Source: Clostridia bacterium (GTDB lineage Bacteria; Bacillota; DSM-521; Neomoorellales; SLTJ01). Taken from it: a stretch of DNA of 50,969 nt. The notes beneath the pieces were generated by a model. That model saw only the letters and a program-made list of their open reading frames with translations, was not told the DNA's origin and did no database searches. A program made the position numbers and the translations under genes. This document shows, piece after piece, positions 28,514 to 38,825 of this stretch. How positions within the stretch are numbered: the first letter of the stretch is position 1; each line of letters starts with the position of its first letter. Where the stretch lies: NCBI GenBank assembly GCA_004347685.1, contig SLTJ01000014.1, forward strand, positions 1 through 50,969, in the 5' to 3' direction.

Positions 28514-28543
28514 TTGACAAACTGGCCTGGCCACGAATATAAT
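28514..28543 (+). promoter_or_regulatory. Promoter of the gene at 28570
   Basis: Plus strand TTGACA (28514-28519), 18-base spacer, TATAAT (28538-28543). It is back-to-back with the carD promoter; their -35 boxes are 22 bases apart. Confidence 0.8.
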
Positions 28544-28569
28544 TGACCTTGGTAAAGGAGTTGACCCCC

Positions 28570-28965
28570 ATGGCCTACCTAACCTGCGATGAATTTCAAA
28601 AAGCAGTAGCCCAGTATACCATTCGTCATAAGAGTATTCTCGATATCATGTCCAAGGCGCAGGACGCCAACGCCCGGTTGAACCGGGCCGTCACTAAGGC
28701 GGCCACCACCTGCGGGTGCATCCGGATCGAAACCATAAAGAAGCCCATCCCTGAGGATGCCTCCCTGGAGGACCTCAGCGATTTGCTGGACAACCATCTG
28801 CGGGGAAGTCTGTGCGAAGACTGCCGGGACATGGTAGAAAACGAGATGGGCAAGCTCTTATTCTACCTGGCCGCCCTGTGCAATACCGTCGGCCTTGACC
28901 TGAACTCGGTGATGGCCAAAGAAGACAACCAGCTTAAGACCCTGCGAGTTTTTAACCTTACCTGA
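28570..28965 (+). CDS. Small helical protein with MazG-like C-terminal segment
   Basis: 131 residues, starting MAYLTCDEFQKAVAQY at ATG 28570 (AAAGGAG upstream). Helix-rich, with a CGC motif (residue about 52) and CEDC (about residue 87), four cysteines that could bind a metal. The last helix NEMGKLLFYLAALCNTVGLDL resembles the E..D/LLFYL..L...lgidl helix of MazG-like NTP pyrophosphohydrolases, but the acidic metal motif (ExxE...ExxD) is incomplete. I recall similar proteins next to carD/radA in clostridia (often labelled with a DUF name); function unknown. It is transcribed oppositely to its neighbours. Confidence 0.65.
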   Translation: MAYLTCDEFQKAVAQYTIRHKSILDIMSKAQDANARLNRAVTKAATTCGCIRIETIKKPIPEDASLEDLSDLLDNHLRGSLCEDCRDMVENEMGKLLFYLAALCNTVGLDLNSVMAKEDNQLKTLRVFNLT

Positions 28966-30900: not shown

Positions 30901-30933
30901 CAACTAGCAGACATCAAAACGGAGGTGGAAAGA

Positions 30934-31902
30934 TTGGGAGAGGACAGGAAAGAAGGGTTGTCCAGAAGGAAGTTTCTCCTGGGGGCGGGGGCCCTGGCCG
31001 CCGGGGCAGCGGTTACAGGAGGAGCTCTGGGCGGAGTGAAGGAAAGCCTGGCCGCAGGCCAGCCGGTAAAGGTAACGGTCAACGGCGTGGAAATAGCCGG
31101 TCCGGTACCGGCCCGGATCGAAAAGGGTACGGCTCTGGCTCCGGTCCGGCCCCTGGCCGAATCCCTGGGAGCCAGGGTGGGCTGGGACAACAGCAGCAAG
31201 ACGGTGACCATCACCGCGGGAACCGGAGCGAAGGTGGCTACCGCCCCGGCCTGGCCGTGGCCGTACAATAAGCTGGACCCAGAAAAGGTGAGAAAGCTCG
31301 GGTATGAAGCGTACTACGAAGGCGGCTGCATGTACGGCGCGGCCAAGGCCATAATTGGGGCGCTGCAGCAGGAAGTGGGGTACCCATTCACCTTGATACC
31401 GGTAGACATGCTTAGATACGGCGAAGGCGGAACCGCCGGCTGGGGGACCCTGTGCGGCGCCTTAAACGGGTCATCTGCAGCCATAACCCTGGTATGTGGC
31501 AAGGGCGTCTACTCGCAACTAGTTAACGAATTGCTGGGCTGGTATACGCAGGAGCCCTTCCCGAGCAAGAAACACGAAGCCTACAGCAAGTTCAAGAACC
31601 AGATCCAGAATGTCTCCGGCTCCCCCCTTTGCCACATATCAGTTACCGAGTGGTGCAAGGTATCCGGCAAGAAAGTGACTGATCCTGAGCGGCTCGACCG
31701 CTGCGGCAAACTCACCGGCGACGTAGCTGCCCGGGCCGTGGAGTTGCTAAATGCCCAGGCCGACGGCAAATTCGTGGCCGCCTACAAACCCTCGGAATTA
31801 TTTGCCGGCTGCATGAGCTGCCACGTAGGCAAAGATAGCACCCTGAACAACGTCCAGGGCAAGATGAACTGCGTGCAATGCCACGAGCCCCACATAAAGT
31901 AA
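30934..31902 (+). CDS. TAT-exported split-Soret-type diheme cytochrome c with copper-amine-oxidase-like N-terminal domain
   Basis: About 322 residues. Order: twin-arginine signal (LSRRKFLLGAGALAAGAA), a copper amine oxidase N-terminal-like domain (VTVNGVEIAGPVPARIEKGTALAPVRPLAESLGARVGWDNSSKTVTI), then a C_GCAxxG_C_C-type domain (GGCMYGAAKAIIGAL, GWGTLCGALNG) as in Desulfovibrio split-Soret cytochrome c, and two heme sites CMSCH and CVQCH near the end. The C-terminal part therefore looks like split-Soret cytochrome; the front domain is often a cell-surface or oligomerisation module in clostridia. TTG at 30934 has GGAGGTG seven bases upstream. A terminator follows at 31925. The redox partner is unknown. 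Confidence 0.85.
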   Translation: MGEDRKEGLSRRKFLLGAGALAAGAAVTGGALGGVKESLAAGQPVKVTVNGVEIAGPVPARIEKGTALAPVRPLAESLGARVGWDNSSKTVTITAGTGAKVATAPAWPWPYNKLDPEKVRKLGYEAYYEGGCMYGAAKAIIGALQQEVGYPFTLIPVDMLRYGEGGTAGWGTLCGALNGSSAAITLVCGKGVYSQLVNELLGWYTQEPFPSKKHEAYSKFKNQIQNVSGSPLCHISVTEWCKVSGKKVTDPERLDRCGKLTGDVAARAVELLNAQADGKFVAAYKPSELFAGCMSCHVGKDSTLNNVQGKMNCVQCHEPHIK

Positions 31903-31924: not shown

Positions 31925-31953
31925 AAATGGAGGCCGCGGCCTCCATTTTTTTT
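31925..31953 (+). terminator. Terminator after the split-Soret cytochrome gene
   Basis: ATGGAGGCC-GC-GGCCTCCAT, a perfect stem, followed by eight T (31946-31953). Confidence 0.95.
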
Positions 31954-32103
31954 GCCGGAAGGCGTAAAACCAGGCGGCAGAGGCGTACGTTAGCAGGTTA
32001 AGGGCGGGCCAAGGCAGAATGGGCAAAGTGCAAATATCTTGCCGGCTGCTGCCGGGAGGAGTAGAATAAAAAGAGGGATACCAGGTTAAAGGCGGTGATA
32101 GCG

Positions 32104-33015
32104 GTGAACAGCAACCAGTTAGAAGTCTTCTGTCTGATAGCCAGGGTAAAAAGCTTTTCCAAGGCGGCACGCCTGTTACACCTCTCCCAGCCGGCGGTAA
32201 GCGCCCAGATTCGTTCTCTGGAAGATCACCTGGGGGTGGAGCTCTTCGAGCGCCAGCCCCAGGGGGTGGAACTGACGGCTGCCGGCCGCGTAGTTTACCG
32301 TTACGCCACTCAGATCCTGGCTCTTTGGGATTCCATGGAAAAGCATCTAGACAGCCTGTGCGGCCTCCACAACGAAGAACTGCTGGTGGCGGCCAGTTCC
32401 TGCCTGGGCAACTATGCCCTGCCCTGCGCTGTTTATGACTTCGGGCAGAAGCACCCCACCGCCAAGGTAAGGCTGGAAATAGCCAACCGGCAGCAGATAA
32501 TAGGGCAACTGCAGGATAACCGGGTACAGGTGGGCATTGTCGAAGGCCCGCTGGAGGAACTGGACGGAGGCTTTAAGATCAAGGAGGTAGCCCGGGACAC
32601 CCTGGTAATCATCGCCGCCCCGCAATCTCCCTGGGCCGAACGGCAAACCATCTCGCTGGAAGATCTGCGAACAGAGCCCTTTATCCTTCGGGAGAAGGGG
32701 TCGGGGGTGCGCCGGGCCTTTGAGCAGGTACTGGCCGACCACGGCCTGAGCCTGGAGGAACTCAACATCACGGCCGAACTAGGCAGCATGGATGCGGTCA
32801 AGTCGGCTGTGCAGGCTGGCCTCGGCCTCAGCCTCAGCACCCGCCTGGCCGTGAAGTCGGAACTGCGCCGGCACAGCCTGTATGCCCTGGAACTGGCTGG
32901 AGGATCGGTTACCATTACCCATTACCTGGTATACCGCACCGGGTGCTACCAGAGCGCGGTAACCCGCAAGTTCATCCAGTTTATTACCTCGCCTGGGGAA
33001 CAAATTTTTTGCTAG
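32104..33015 (+). CDS. LysR-family transcription regulator
   Basis: About 303 residues. N-terminal winged HTH (LEVFCLIARVKSFSKAARLLHLSQPAVSAQIRSLEDHLGVELFER), then a type 2 periplasmic-binding-like effector domain. GTG at 32104 (GGCGG upstream) is favoured; a GTG three codons earlier is possible. The effector domain resembles CysB/CysL-like regulators of sulfur or other anion metabolism (weak). It converges on the YeeE/TusA operon, with adjacent stops, and is a candidate regulator of it and of the plus-strand yedE-tusA operon (inference). Confidence 0.9.
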   Translation: MNSNQLEVFCLIARVKSFSKAARLLHLSQPAVSAQIRSLEDHLGVELFERQPQGVELTAAGRVVYRYATQILALWDSMEKHLDSLCGLHNEELLVAASSCLGNYALPCAVYDFGQKHPTAKVRLEIANRQQIIGQLQDNRVQVGIVEGPLEELDGGFKIKEVARDTLVIIAAPQSPWAERQTISLEDLRTEPFILREKGSGVRRAFEQVLADHGLSLEELNITAELGSMDAVKSAVQAGLGLSLSTRLAVKSELRRHSLYALELAGGSVTITHYLVYRTGCYQSAVTRKFIQFITSPGEQIFC

Positions 33016-33558
33016 CTAGAACAGCCGCGGCAGCAGCCACGCCCCTAGGGCCGCGCCGGCCAGGAGCCCGGCGGCAAACAGCCAGCCATGCGGGCTGAAG
33101 GCGCCGATGCCCCCTAGCAGGGCGCCGATATTGCAGCCCATGGCCAGGCGCGCGCCATACCCCATCAGCAAACCACCGGCCAGGCCGACCAGTGCCACCG
33201 GCCACCGCCGCGGCAGGCGCCACCGCCCTTCCCGGGCCAGCAAACTCGAAAGCAGGGCCCCCAAGATAAGGCCCAGGTTAGACCAGGTACCGTGGTATAG
33301 CCAGGGCGAAGCCAGGTATACGGTTAGACCCATATCCCGCCAGTAGGGCCAGCTACTCACCTCACCACCAAGCACCTGCGCCAGCCAGCCGGTCCAGTAG
33401 GCCCAGGCGCTGGTAATGCCCCAGGGTCGTCGGGCCAAAAGCAGGTAGGCCAGGGAGAGGCCTCCCAAGGCCAGGGCTCCTGCCTGATAGGACCAGTACC
33501 GCTTAGACCATGGACAAGAGATCTTCTTTACCGTATCTTGCGCAGGGTTACGCTCCAC
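33016..33558 (-). CDS. Half-size YeeE/YedE transporter, N-terminal-half equivalent
   Basis: 180 residues, about five membrane helices. It aligns with the N-terminal half of the full-length protein at 37605: YLASPWLYHG..GLILGALLSSLLARE corresponds to MHSMIDVGIILGALAAAMLASE, and GGLLMGYGARLAMGCNIGALLGGIGAFSPHGW to GGILMGFGTVLMPPCNVGGFWVATMAFSLSG. The conserved Cys sits in the same place. YeeE/YedE proteins import thiosulfate or related sulfur or selenium species. The gene overlaps tusA by 31 bases and is last in its operon. Confidence 0.85.
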   Translation of the reverse strand: MERNPAQDTVKKISCPWSKRYWSYQAGALALGGLSLAYLLLARRPWGITSAWAYWTGWLAQVLGGEVSSWPYWRDMGLTVYLASPWLYHGTWSNLGLILGALLSSLLAREGRWRLPRRWPVALVGLAGGLLMGYGARLAMGCNIGALLGGIGAFSPHGWLFAAGLLAGAALGAWLLPRLF

Positions 33559-33773
33559 AGCCCGGGCTCCACCTCGTCAACAATCAGGATATCGTGACCC
33601 TCCCTGGCGGCCCAGTCGAGAATATTGCGCACGGCCCGGCTGAAGTCGGTGGTTACCAGCAACTCGTCGCCGGGCAGAAGCTCCGCCATCTTCCGGTGCA
33701 CCAAAAGCAACGGTACCGGGCAGATCTCGCCAATGGCGTCCAGCGTGTATCGGACCACAGCCCAAACCTCCAC
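33528..33773 (-). CDS. tusA: TusA-like sulfur carrier protein
   Basis: 81 residues with the TusA/SirA fold pattern and the active-site motif GEICPVPLLLVHRKM; the Cys in CPxP carries persulfide sulfur. GTG start at 33773 (another GTG five codons on). It lies between the two half-permeases, which it probably serves by accepting imported sulfur (in E. coli a YeeD TusA-like protein works with YeeE). Confidence 0.88.
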   Translation of the reverse strand: MEVWAVVRYTLDAIGEICPVPLLLVHRKMAELLPGDELLVTTDFSRAVRNILDWAAREGHDILIVDEVEPGLWSVTLRKIR

Positions 33774-33791: not shown

Positions 33792-34430
33792 TCATCCCCG
33801 CCTCCGGGCCAGGCGCAGCAGCCACCAGGCCCCTGCCAGGCCGCCCACCTGCAGGGCCAGAGCCGCCGGCCAGCCCATGGCTACCGGTAAAGGTTTGAGG
33901 GAGCTCAGACCGCCTAACCGGAGCCACAAAGGATAGGTGTAAGCACCCAGGAGGGTCCCCCCAGCCAGACCCGCCCCCACCAGCAGGTAGAGCAGAAAGC
34001 CCTCCCCCAGCCGCACCAGCGAAGTGCAGGCGCAGGCCCCGGCCAATACCATGCCCAAACCAAAAAGAAAGCCTCCCAACACCGTGGCTGGTCCGCTGCG
34101 CCAGTAGTAAGGAAAATCGGGCAGCAAGCCGGTGAGGTCCAGGACGGCAAAACCGAGAGAAACCGTGAGCAGCAAAGTGACCAGGGCCTGCACCATGGCG
34201 TAGTCGTGAAAAAGAAAGCAGTCACGAAAGCTGGCCGCGAAACAGACCTGGGAGCGGTGCAAAACGAAACCCACCAGCAAGCCGAAAATCCACACCGCAG
34301 CCCACTCCAGCCGGAAATGAGCCAAGACGACCGCCAGAAAAACCGCAACGGCCAGGGCTAGGAAAAAACAACCTGCCTGGCCGTCTTTTCGGCCGGCGAG
34401 GTTCCCCCTGTTCCCTCCAGACAGGCTCAC
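33792..34430 (-). CDS. Half-size YeeE/YedE transporter, C-terminal-half equivalent
   Basis: 212 residues, about six membrane helices. It aligns with the C-terminal half of the full-length protein at 37605: FVLHRSQVCFAASFRDCFLFHDYAMV corresponds to IIVQRSRLCFVAAFRDIFTLRDGTVM, and LGGFLFGLGMVLAGACACTSLVRLGEGFL to VGGFIFGIGMTLAGGCGLGILARSGEGYV. The Cys ligands are kept. GTG start at 34430. First gene of the operon, followed by tusA and the other half; the two halves presumably assemble into one pore. Confidence 0.85.
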   Translation of the reverse strand: MSLSGGNRGNLAGRKDGQAGCFFLALAVAVFLAVVLAHFRLEWAAVWIFGLLVGFVLHRSQVCFAASFRDCFLFHDYAMVQALVTLLLTVSLGFAVLDLTGLLPDFPYYWRSGPATVLGGFLFGLGMVLAGACACTSLVRLGEGFLLYLLVGAGLAGGTLLGAYTYPLWLRLGGLSSLKPLPVAMGWPAALALQVGGLAGAWWLLRLARRRG

Positions 34431-37383: not shown

Positions 37384-37604
37384 CCACCGTTACGCTAAAA
37401 GCCATCCATATACCCGGAAATGGAATATAAAAAGAATTTATACGTGCAGGATTTTATATCGCCATAGTAAATTATGTCGCTCACCAGCCGGGGACACCCA
37501 TCTCCCGGCTCCGGCCGGGGAAACTCGTTCGGTAAGGCCGCCGTGCAAAGCGGAGCAGGCCGAAAGGAAATGGAACGGAAAAACGGAAAGGAAGGTGGTT
37601 GCGG

Positions 37605-38825
37605 ATGCTTGCCGCCGGCTACAGGTGGCGGAAGACAGGAGAAAAACTCAAAGGAGATATCTACCTTAACCTCTGGCGCCGGCCATGGCCACTGGGAGTG
37701 GGAGCCGTAGCCCTGGTAATCACCAATATCTTTATGTTCAGCTACGCCCGGGCCCTGGGGGTCTTTCCCCAGATAGCCATGTGGGGCAGTGCCCTTTACA
37801 GCTTCCTCGGCCTGCCCACAGAAAGCCCCTTTAAACCTTACCCGGTGAAACCCCCTTACCTCGACATGCACAGCATGATTGACGTGGGCATAATCCTGGG
37901 CGCCCTGGCCGCAGCCATGCTTGCCTCTGAATTCAAGCTCCGAAAGGAAAGCTGGCAGGGAGGCCTCCAGGGCCTGCTGGGCGGGATATTGATGGGTTTT
38001 GGGACCGTGCTTATGCCCCCTTGCAACGTGGGGGGGTTTTGGGTGGCCACAATGGCCTTTTCCCTCAGCGGCCCCCTGGCAGCCCTGGGCCTGTTGCCCG
38101 GCGCCTACATCGGCGGCAGAATCCTGCAGTGGCAGGTGCAAAGAGCGGTGGCAGGGATAGATTTTTCGCTGGCGCCCGAAGCCAGGCCAGTACCGGCCCG
38201 GGGCAACTCGCGGCAGCCGATAATCGGCCTGGCCGTGCTGGTCACCATTGCCGGCACCGCCGGCCTTTACCTTGGCCTGGGTATGAACAAGGTGGGGGTG
38301 CTGCTCCTTTTCGGCACCGCCTTTGGGATAATAGTCCAGCGGTCGAGGCTGTGTTTTGTGGCCGCCTTTCGCGACATATTCACCCTGCGCGACGGCACGG
38401 TGATGAAATGGGTGCTCCTTACCCTGGCCATTGGAGCGGTAGGTTTCGCCATCCTCAAGGGCCAGGGCTACCAGCCGGAACACATGGTCTTCCCCGCCGG
38501 CCTGCATAATGTCGTGGGCGGTTTTATCTTCGGCATAGGCATGACTCTCGCCGGAGGGTGCGGCCTGGGTATCCTGGCCAGGAGCGGAGAGGGATACGTG
38601 CGTTCCTGGCTGGCCATCCTGGGGGGCATGCTTTCCAGCGGCGCGTGGGTGCACATTTACGGCCGGAAGGTAGGCGAAGGCTGGTTGTACGGCAAGCCGG
38701 TTTTCTTACCCGCTTACCTCGGCTGGGGCGGGGCCCTGGGCCTTGTCTTTGCCTTTATCCTGGCCTTCTACTTATTAATCCTCTGGGTGGAGGCGGGCAA
38801 AAATGCCAAAGCTCAAAGCGGTTAA
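37605..38825 (+). CDS. yedE: Full-length YeeE/YedE-family sulfur/selenium transporter
   Basis: About 406 residues with ten or more membrane helices in two homologous halves. Each half has a Cys-bearing motif: LMPPCNVGG in the first; RLCFVAAFRDIF and TLAGGCGLG in the second. Such Cys positions relay thiosulfate in YeeE. YedE-type members have been linked to selenium metabolism, so substrate (sulfur or selenium) is open. ATG 37605 with GGAAGGTGG upstream; TTG two codons earlier is possible. The tusA start overlaps its end by 23 bases. The gap 37384-37604 holds nothing recognisable. Confidence 0.9.
   Translation: MLAAGYRWRKTGEKLKGDIYLNLWRRPWPLGVGAVALVITNIFMFSYARALGVFPQIAMWGSALYSFLGLPTESPFKPYPVKPPYLDMHSMIDVGIILGALAAAMLASEFKLRKESWQGGLQGLLGGILMGFGTVLMPPCNVGGFWVATMAFSLSGPLAALGLLPGAYIGGRILQWQVQRAVAGIDFSLAPEARPVPARGNSRQPIIGLAVLVTIAGTAGLYLGLGMNKVGVLLLFGTAFGIIVQRSRLCFVAAFRDIFTLRDGTVMKWVLLTLAIGAVGFAILKGQGYQPEHMVFPAGLHNVVGGFIFGIGMTLAGGCGLGILARSGEGYVRSWLAILGGMLSSGAWVHIYGRKVGEGWLYGKPVFLPAYLGWGGALGLVFAFILAFYLLILWVEAGKNAKAQSG

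Follow-up and report, generated by a model that had tools for sequence, protein, structure and literature searches.

A split-Soret cytochrome homolog fronted by a PF07833 domain in a Clostridia bacterium: a recurrent domain variant with a tentative link to sulfur or selenium compounds

A gene in the window, that is, in the whole stretch of 50,969 nucleotides analysed here, encodes a split-Soret cytochrome homolog with a PF07833 domain (copper amine oxidase N-terminal type) in front of its core. Split-Soret proteins with this fusion add a new domain arrangement to a known family and, though uncommon, turn up repeatedly. The more interesting result is what emerges from the family comparison, namely a Cys/Sec iron-centre protein with an exchangeable electron input and with YedE, TusA, and LysR genes as neighbours. 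We tentatively read the product, at somewhat short of an even chance, as a wall-positioned extracytoplasmic di-heme redox protein that would pass electrons from its hemes to a Cys4 iron centre, which would act on a sulfur or selenium compound to be imported.

The gene occupies 30934..31902 (+), an open reading frame of 322 amino acids plus stop with a TTG start at 30934, and a Shine-Dalgarno-like GGAGGTG (30921..30927, +) can be read in the sequence 6 bases upstream. Residues 1 to about 41 (30934..31056, +) make up a Tat-type signal with an SRRKFL motif at residues 10-15 and a hydrophobic stretch. The scores for two Tat models fall short of their cut-offs (PF10518, 18.8 versus 22.7 bits; TIGR01409, 13.9 versus 16.7), and Arg11 and Phe14 of the motif are near-invariant across 59 homologs. 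The PF07833 match at residues 48-96 (31075..31221, +) reaches 39.2 bits against a cut-off of 24.2 and covers only positions 1-49 of the 108 in the profile, making this a half-length domain. Residues 104-318 (31243..31887, +) form the split-Soret core and heme tail, within which PF09719 (C_GCAxxG_C_C) matches residues 136-270 with 45.4 bits (cut-off 27). Homolog comparison marks Cys132 (31327..31329, +), Cys174 (31453..31455, +), Cys233-His234 (31630..31635, +), and Cys257 (31702..31704, +) as key positions, and sequence and homologs together identify two heme sites, CMSCH at residues 293-297 (31810..31824, +) and CVQCH at residues 313-317 (31870..31884, +). The order of Tat signal, front domain, split-Soret/PF09719 core, and two CxxCH sites given by the first-pass annotation thus holds in both coordinates and features, and the domain search bears out its assignment of the front domain to PF07833. 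A palindrome, GGAGGCCGCGGCCTCC followed by ATTTTTTTT (31929..31953, +), was judged by eye to be a terminator, a call absent from the scan's list, and the gene is therefore probably monocistronic.

Several lines of evidence establish the family. The split-Soret model NF047622 covers residues 98-318 (E 2e-54) with 184.8 bits, under its equivalog cut-off of 400, and by sequence the product is a split-Soret family homolog outside the Desulfovibrio-type equivalog. A phmmer search against the PDB returned 1h21 as the sole significant match (residues 104-318, E 4.3e-41). An AlphaFold model built with 58 homologs has a mean pLDDT of 82, mostly above 90 in the core and lower in the front domain, and Foldseek matched it to 1h21 with E 2.6e-16, a TM-score of 0.82 on the target, and an rmsd of 1.9, the only match at E < 0.001. 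The score for TIGR01909, a C_GCAxxG_C_C subfamily model, is 28.7 against a cut-off of 47.4. Core sequence and fold similarity, two C-terminal CxxCH sites, and four Cys residues are what mark the product as split-Soret, and the phmmer, Foldseek, and NF047622 results uphold the identity first proposed for it; chance does not account for these matches. Cys132, Cys174, Cys233, and Cys257 would bind an iron centre as in 1h21. Structural work on the Desulfovibrio split-Soret cytochrome between 1997 and 2003 reportedly described a fold in which hemes are stacked, together with a novel iron centre. The earlier statement that such cytochromes are known from Desulfovibrio without a front domain is right for the Desulfovibrio protein 1h21, although the family also occurs beyond that genus. 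Our literature search, in which most subscription papers were outside reach, found no paper giving a split-Soret cytochrome a function and none linking split-Soret to selenocysteine or to copper amine oxidase.

How widespread is the front domain? A survey of the phylum covered 398 genomes and found a split-Soret homolog at E < 1e-15 in 52. PF07833 precedes the core in 17 of 85 full-length split-Soret proteins of this sample (15 with hemes and 2 without), which come from 9 genomes; the architecture is therefore not unique, and the description of it as unusual is accurate in the sense of uncommon and inaccurate in that the order recurs. Thirteen fused proteins, the window's included, were scanned with Pfam, and 13 of 13 pass the PF07833 cut-off, each over about half of the profile. 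The named survey, which comprised 78 loci, showed no such fusion outside Bacillota. The closest homologs, L037 (core 80% identical) and L038 (75%), both lack the domain. On quick trees, a single-clade origin of the fused proteins is rejected (AU test, p 1.1e-10), and the presence of PF07833 requires at least 6 changes. By these quick trees, on which gain and loss are not separable, the front domain came and went repeatedly. Between the window's fused domain and that of L145, identity is 73% (37/51), as opposed to at most about 51% with the copies compared from its own genome, which makes recent capture from the genome's other PF07833 proteins unlikely. The nearest relatives of this domain are the domains fused in other genomes, which would be better explained by a long-standing fusion that some lineages lost, or by split-Soret genes exchanging the domain, than by a fresh capture. 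PF07833 occurs in 30 places in the window's own genome, as compared to 1 of 14 control genomes, and many of the others align over most of the profile, where the one studied here covers only half.

The residue comparison, which took in 141 homologs (120 heme-bearing and 21 heme-less), drew attention to the Cys residues. Cys174, Cys233, and Cys257 are found in 141/141. Position 132 is Cys in 118/141 and Sec, read from an in-frame UGA, in 23/141, and no other split-Soret position has Sec. Hairpins following the UGA are SECIS-like, with a mean z of -2.2 as opposed to -0.2 in the Cys homologs (p 4e-9), and the UGA-at-132 homologs with such hairpins are predicted to be selenoprotein forms, five of them heme-less. 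UGA at this position occurs in L055, L056, L078, L160, L168 (two), L174, L177, L178, L195, L196, L198-L206, L208, L210, and L211. SelB scored above cut-off in 18 of the 19 genomes listed with UGA copies; since SelB is near-universal in the genomes tested, this result is consistent with the Sec reading and does not discriminate. We found no published report of Sec in the split-Soret branch; PF09719 as a whole has known selenoprotein members (PMC9312934, PMC13188914). His234 is present in 120/120 heme-bearing homologs and in only 2/21 heme-less ones (one of the two, L087, is cut by a contig end), a distribution that makes it a likely heme ligand. His320 is found in 111/120 heme-bearing homologs.

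The heme tail, in contrast to the Cys residues, appears to be exchangeable. Heme-less split-Soret homologs retain all four Cys, and two of them (L097 and L105) end in a fused FMN-binding domain (FMN_bind), while in heme-less L099 an FMN_bind gene (L099:9474-9803) lies two genes downstream. These observations suggest that what stays constant is the Cys centre, with hemes or flavin as alternative ways to feed it. Heme-less relatives also occur among close kin (L194 and L197, from the family of the window's genome, and L092 and L189), Moorella sulfitireducens included; L092 and L189 are additionally without a visible Tat signal.

The product would work outside the cytoplasmic membrane of a Gram-positive cell. 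The 3.1 Mb genome belongs to the same order as Moorella sulfitireducens and no Omp85 homolog was found in it, in agreement with the earlier call of a Gram-positive anaerobe, here of monoderm type. ResB was not found in the genome either, and ResB-type (system II) heme attachment was set aside; with two PF01578 proteins of CcmF/CcmC size encoded, cytochrome c maturation is probably Ccm-type. PF07833 proteins, often wall hydrolases, were reported in the Gram-positive surfaceome of Desulfotomaculum reducens (PMC4137172), and surface placement of the product through this domain, which the literature associates with the wall, would fit. Other anchors seem to serve elsewhere in the family: a regular expression finds a lipobox-like site after the Tat motif of 27 Bacillota proteins, and by motif count 24 proteins from Bacteroidota and their relatives have C-terminal tails of type IX sorting type, of which the one scanned fell just below the Pfam sorting-domain cut-off. 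Together with PF07833, these features support a family that is extracytoplasmic and often anchored. Within L060-L102 (Bacteroidota, Ignavibacteria, and relatives), where the tails resembling type IX sorting domains are seen in split-Soret cytochromes, ArsR, CcdA-like, thioredoxin-like, and permease genes lie nearby.

Such placement was the basis for the proposal of the first-pass annotation that the protein is a candidate extracellular or surface electron carrier. In its fullest form, PF07833 would position both hemes within the wall, from where electrons could step on to minerals or to other acceptors outside the cell, and the role of the Cys centre would be storage or structure. The recurrence of surface modules (PF07833 in Bacillota, candidate type IX tails in Bacteroidota and Ignavibacteria, and lipobox-like sites in other Bacillota) is in keeping with this idea, as are the several copies adjoining a NapC-type cytochrome in MAGs labelled Thermincola ferriacetica. 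A Pyrodictium split-Soret cytochrome was detected during growth both with nitrate and with ferrihydrite, but it was no more abundant with ferrihydrite (PMC8105010). The protein also has only two hemes, its gene neighbours are those of sulfur/selenium transport, and an invariant Cys/Sec centre that persists with all four Cys in heme-less homologs is hard to reconcile with a carrier. We consider this explanation unlikely. The Cys tetrad, the Cys132-to-Sec and heme-to-FMN swaps, and the YedE-TusA-LysR neighbours point instead to a sulfur/selenium redox enzyme, which describes the protein better than "electron carrier" does.

Those neighbours lie downstream. A LysR-type regulator gene (32095..33015, +; PF03466/PF00126), which falls by tree in a clade found with split-Soret loci, is followed on the opposite strand by two halves of a YedE transporter around a TusA-like sulfur carrier: YedE_b (33016..33558, -; PF04143, 2.9e-30, profile 170-309), the TusA-like protein with a CPVP motif (33528..33773, -; PF01206, 1.9e-18), and YedE_a (33792..34430, -; PF04143, 1.6e-22, profile 1-151). 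Across 78 Bacillota loci, whose kinship was left unweighted in these counts, the genes cluster within 3 kb of split-Soret genes as compared to beyond 4 kb: YedE_a, 24 versus 0; YedE_b, 20 versus 0; TusA, 20 versus 1 (the window's own TusA was missed because longer ORFs overlap it); LysR, 25 versus 0; and TatC, 10 versus 0. The YedE_a-TusA-YedE_b order is kept in nearly all loci drawn, and the cassette LysRs form one clade (97*, 26/27) apart from other related LysRs. In the window, the split-Soret gene and the YedE-TusA set are convergent, with the likely terminator after the split-Soret gene, and thus do not form one transcript. The cassette is absent from about two thirds of Bacillota loci, including those of the closest homologs L037 and L038. 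The window also holds a full-length YedE-family transporter gene (37599-38825, +; PF04143, 5e-53) and a 140-residue ORF (28543-28965, +) with several Cys and no Pfam match above cut-off.

Other partners are seen as well. A NapC/NirT-type cytochrome gene lies within 3 kb in 7 loci, directly downstream in L044 and L064, and the window's own genome encodes a NapC-type protein; a cytochrome of this type is a plausible menaquinol-side donor. At L179, L182, L188, L190, and L191, split-Soret genes adjoin those for [NiFe] hydrogenase small and large subunits, at a distance of no more than 3 kb. Such variety would be expected of a generic electron-transfer module, with a partner that changes by lineage (hydrogenase, formate dehydrogenase b-type subunit, or NapC), no fixed substrate, and YedE-TusA as one of many uses. 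Besides the 5 loci with hydrogenase subunits, a membrane protein common to 3 Pyrodictiaceae/Thermoproteota loci and the formate dehydrogenase cytochrome b in Pyrodictium (PMC8105010) speak for a module of this kind. Proteins that have lost the heme tail nevertheless keep the Cys tetrad, which makes the Cys centre rather than the hemes the constant element, and we find the module improbable.

The cassette suggests a sulfur (or selenium) compound as the substrate class. YeeE/YeeD transport thiosulfate in other bacteria (PMC11073785), and other YeeE/YedE relatives carry sulfur for oxidation (PMC11582611). In a selenium version of the system, the protein would act outside the membrane on selenite or some other form of selenium, reducing it, with YedE-TusA importing the product for selenophosphate and Sec synthesis. 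YedE (two genes in archaea), SirA/TusA-like proteins, and the LysR_Se subfamily have indeed been proposed for selenium metabolism (PMC5322559), Sec occurs in 23 split-Soret homologs, and SelB is present in 48/52 genomes with split-Soret as opposed to 214/346 others (counted from the listing, with kinship uncorrected). The window's LysR scores 248.2 against the LysR_Se model NF040786, close to its cut-off of 250. Being two bits under that cut-off and in a separate clade, it was not assigned to the selenium subfamily; the cassette LysRs are separate from the remaining NF040786-like copies, and in the window's own genome two of those remaining are located on the contig with selB and next to selD. 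Deleting yedE in Methanococcus also gave no clear selenium phenotype (PMC11097638). We regard the selenium version as quite unlikely and slightly prefer sulfur as the substrate element.

The mechanism that we tentatively favour would begin in the cytoplasm, with folding of the protein and binding of the Cys4 iron centre, followed by export through the Tat route. Two hemes would then be attached outside by the Ccm system, and the half-length PF07833 domain would hold the cytochrome in or near the cell wall. The hemes, further ligated axially by His234 and probably by His320, would be the entry point for electrons. These would move on to the iron centre of Cys132, Cys174, Cys233, and Cys257, where Cys132 (Sec in some relatives) would be the reactive position. 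The centre would reduce or otherwise convert an extracytoplasmic sulfur compound, possibly a selenium compound, and the split YedE transporter would import the product and hand it to TusA under the control of a dedicated LysR. Counted against this role are the convergent gene layout in the window, the absence of the cassette at most Bacillota loci, the hydrogenase neighbours at 5, and mutants in two Desulfovibrio alaskensis split-Soret genes, which showed no phenotype under the energetic conditions tried (PMC4215793). A broader proposal, which we consider doubtful, is that split-Soret is the exported reductase of an undescribed chalcogen-acquisition system of anaerobes (a heme- or flavin-fed Cys/Sec centre, split YedE, TusA, and LysR), with the PF07833 fusion as its wall-tethered Bacillota form. 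The comparison names a likely reactive residue (Cys132), a likely heme ligand (His234), a heme-flavin swap, and a neighbourhood hinting at the substrate class, making split-Soret function directly testable. The fusion itself adds a redox protein form with a possible place in the wall of monoderm anaerobes.

In terms of known systems, the split-Soret cytochrome of Desulfovibrio desulfuricans ATCC 27774 (1h21) shares with the window's product the fold over residues 104-318, the four Cys, the LCH motif, and the two C-terminal CxxCH sites, but the two are 35% identical in the structural alignment and only the window's protein has PF07833 between Tat signal and core. The wider C_GCAxxG_C_C redox family (PF09719, TIGR01909) has the same four-Cys pattern and Sec in some members, whereas the split-Soret branch has Tat export and c-type hemes. 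L037 and L038, from Bacillota MAGs, have the same heme and Cys sites as the product but no YedE-TusA neighbours in the flanking DNA examined. Other Bacillota with the Tat-PF07833-split-Soret arrangement include Clostridiales PH28_bin88 (L040 and L152) and UBA2598 (L042 and L043), along with L145, L146, L150, L160, L172, L178, L180, L183, and L184. These fused proteins share the domain order with two hemes and the half-length PF07833 (the second L180 copy is cut by a contig end); they differ in a core about 44-63% identical to that of the window's protein and, in L160 and L178, in Sec at 132. Finally, both the YeeE/YeeD (TsuA/TsuB) thiosulfate uptake system and the YedE/TusA/LysR_Se set encode PF04143 and PF01206 proteins together, as the window does, but the window's system has YedE split in two around TusA, adds a cytochrome that is exported, and has a LysR from a separate clade.
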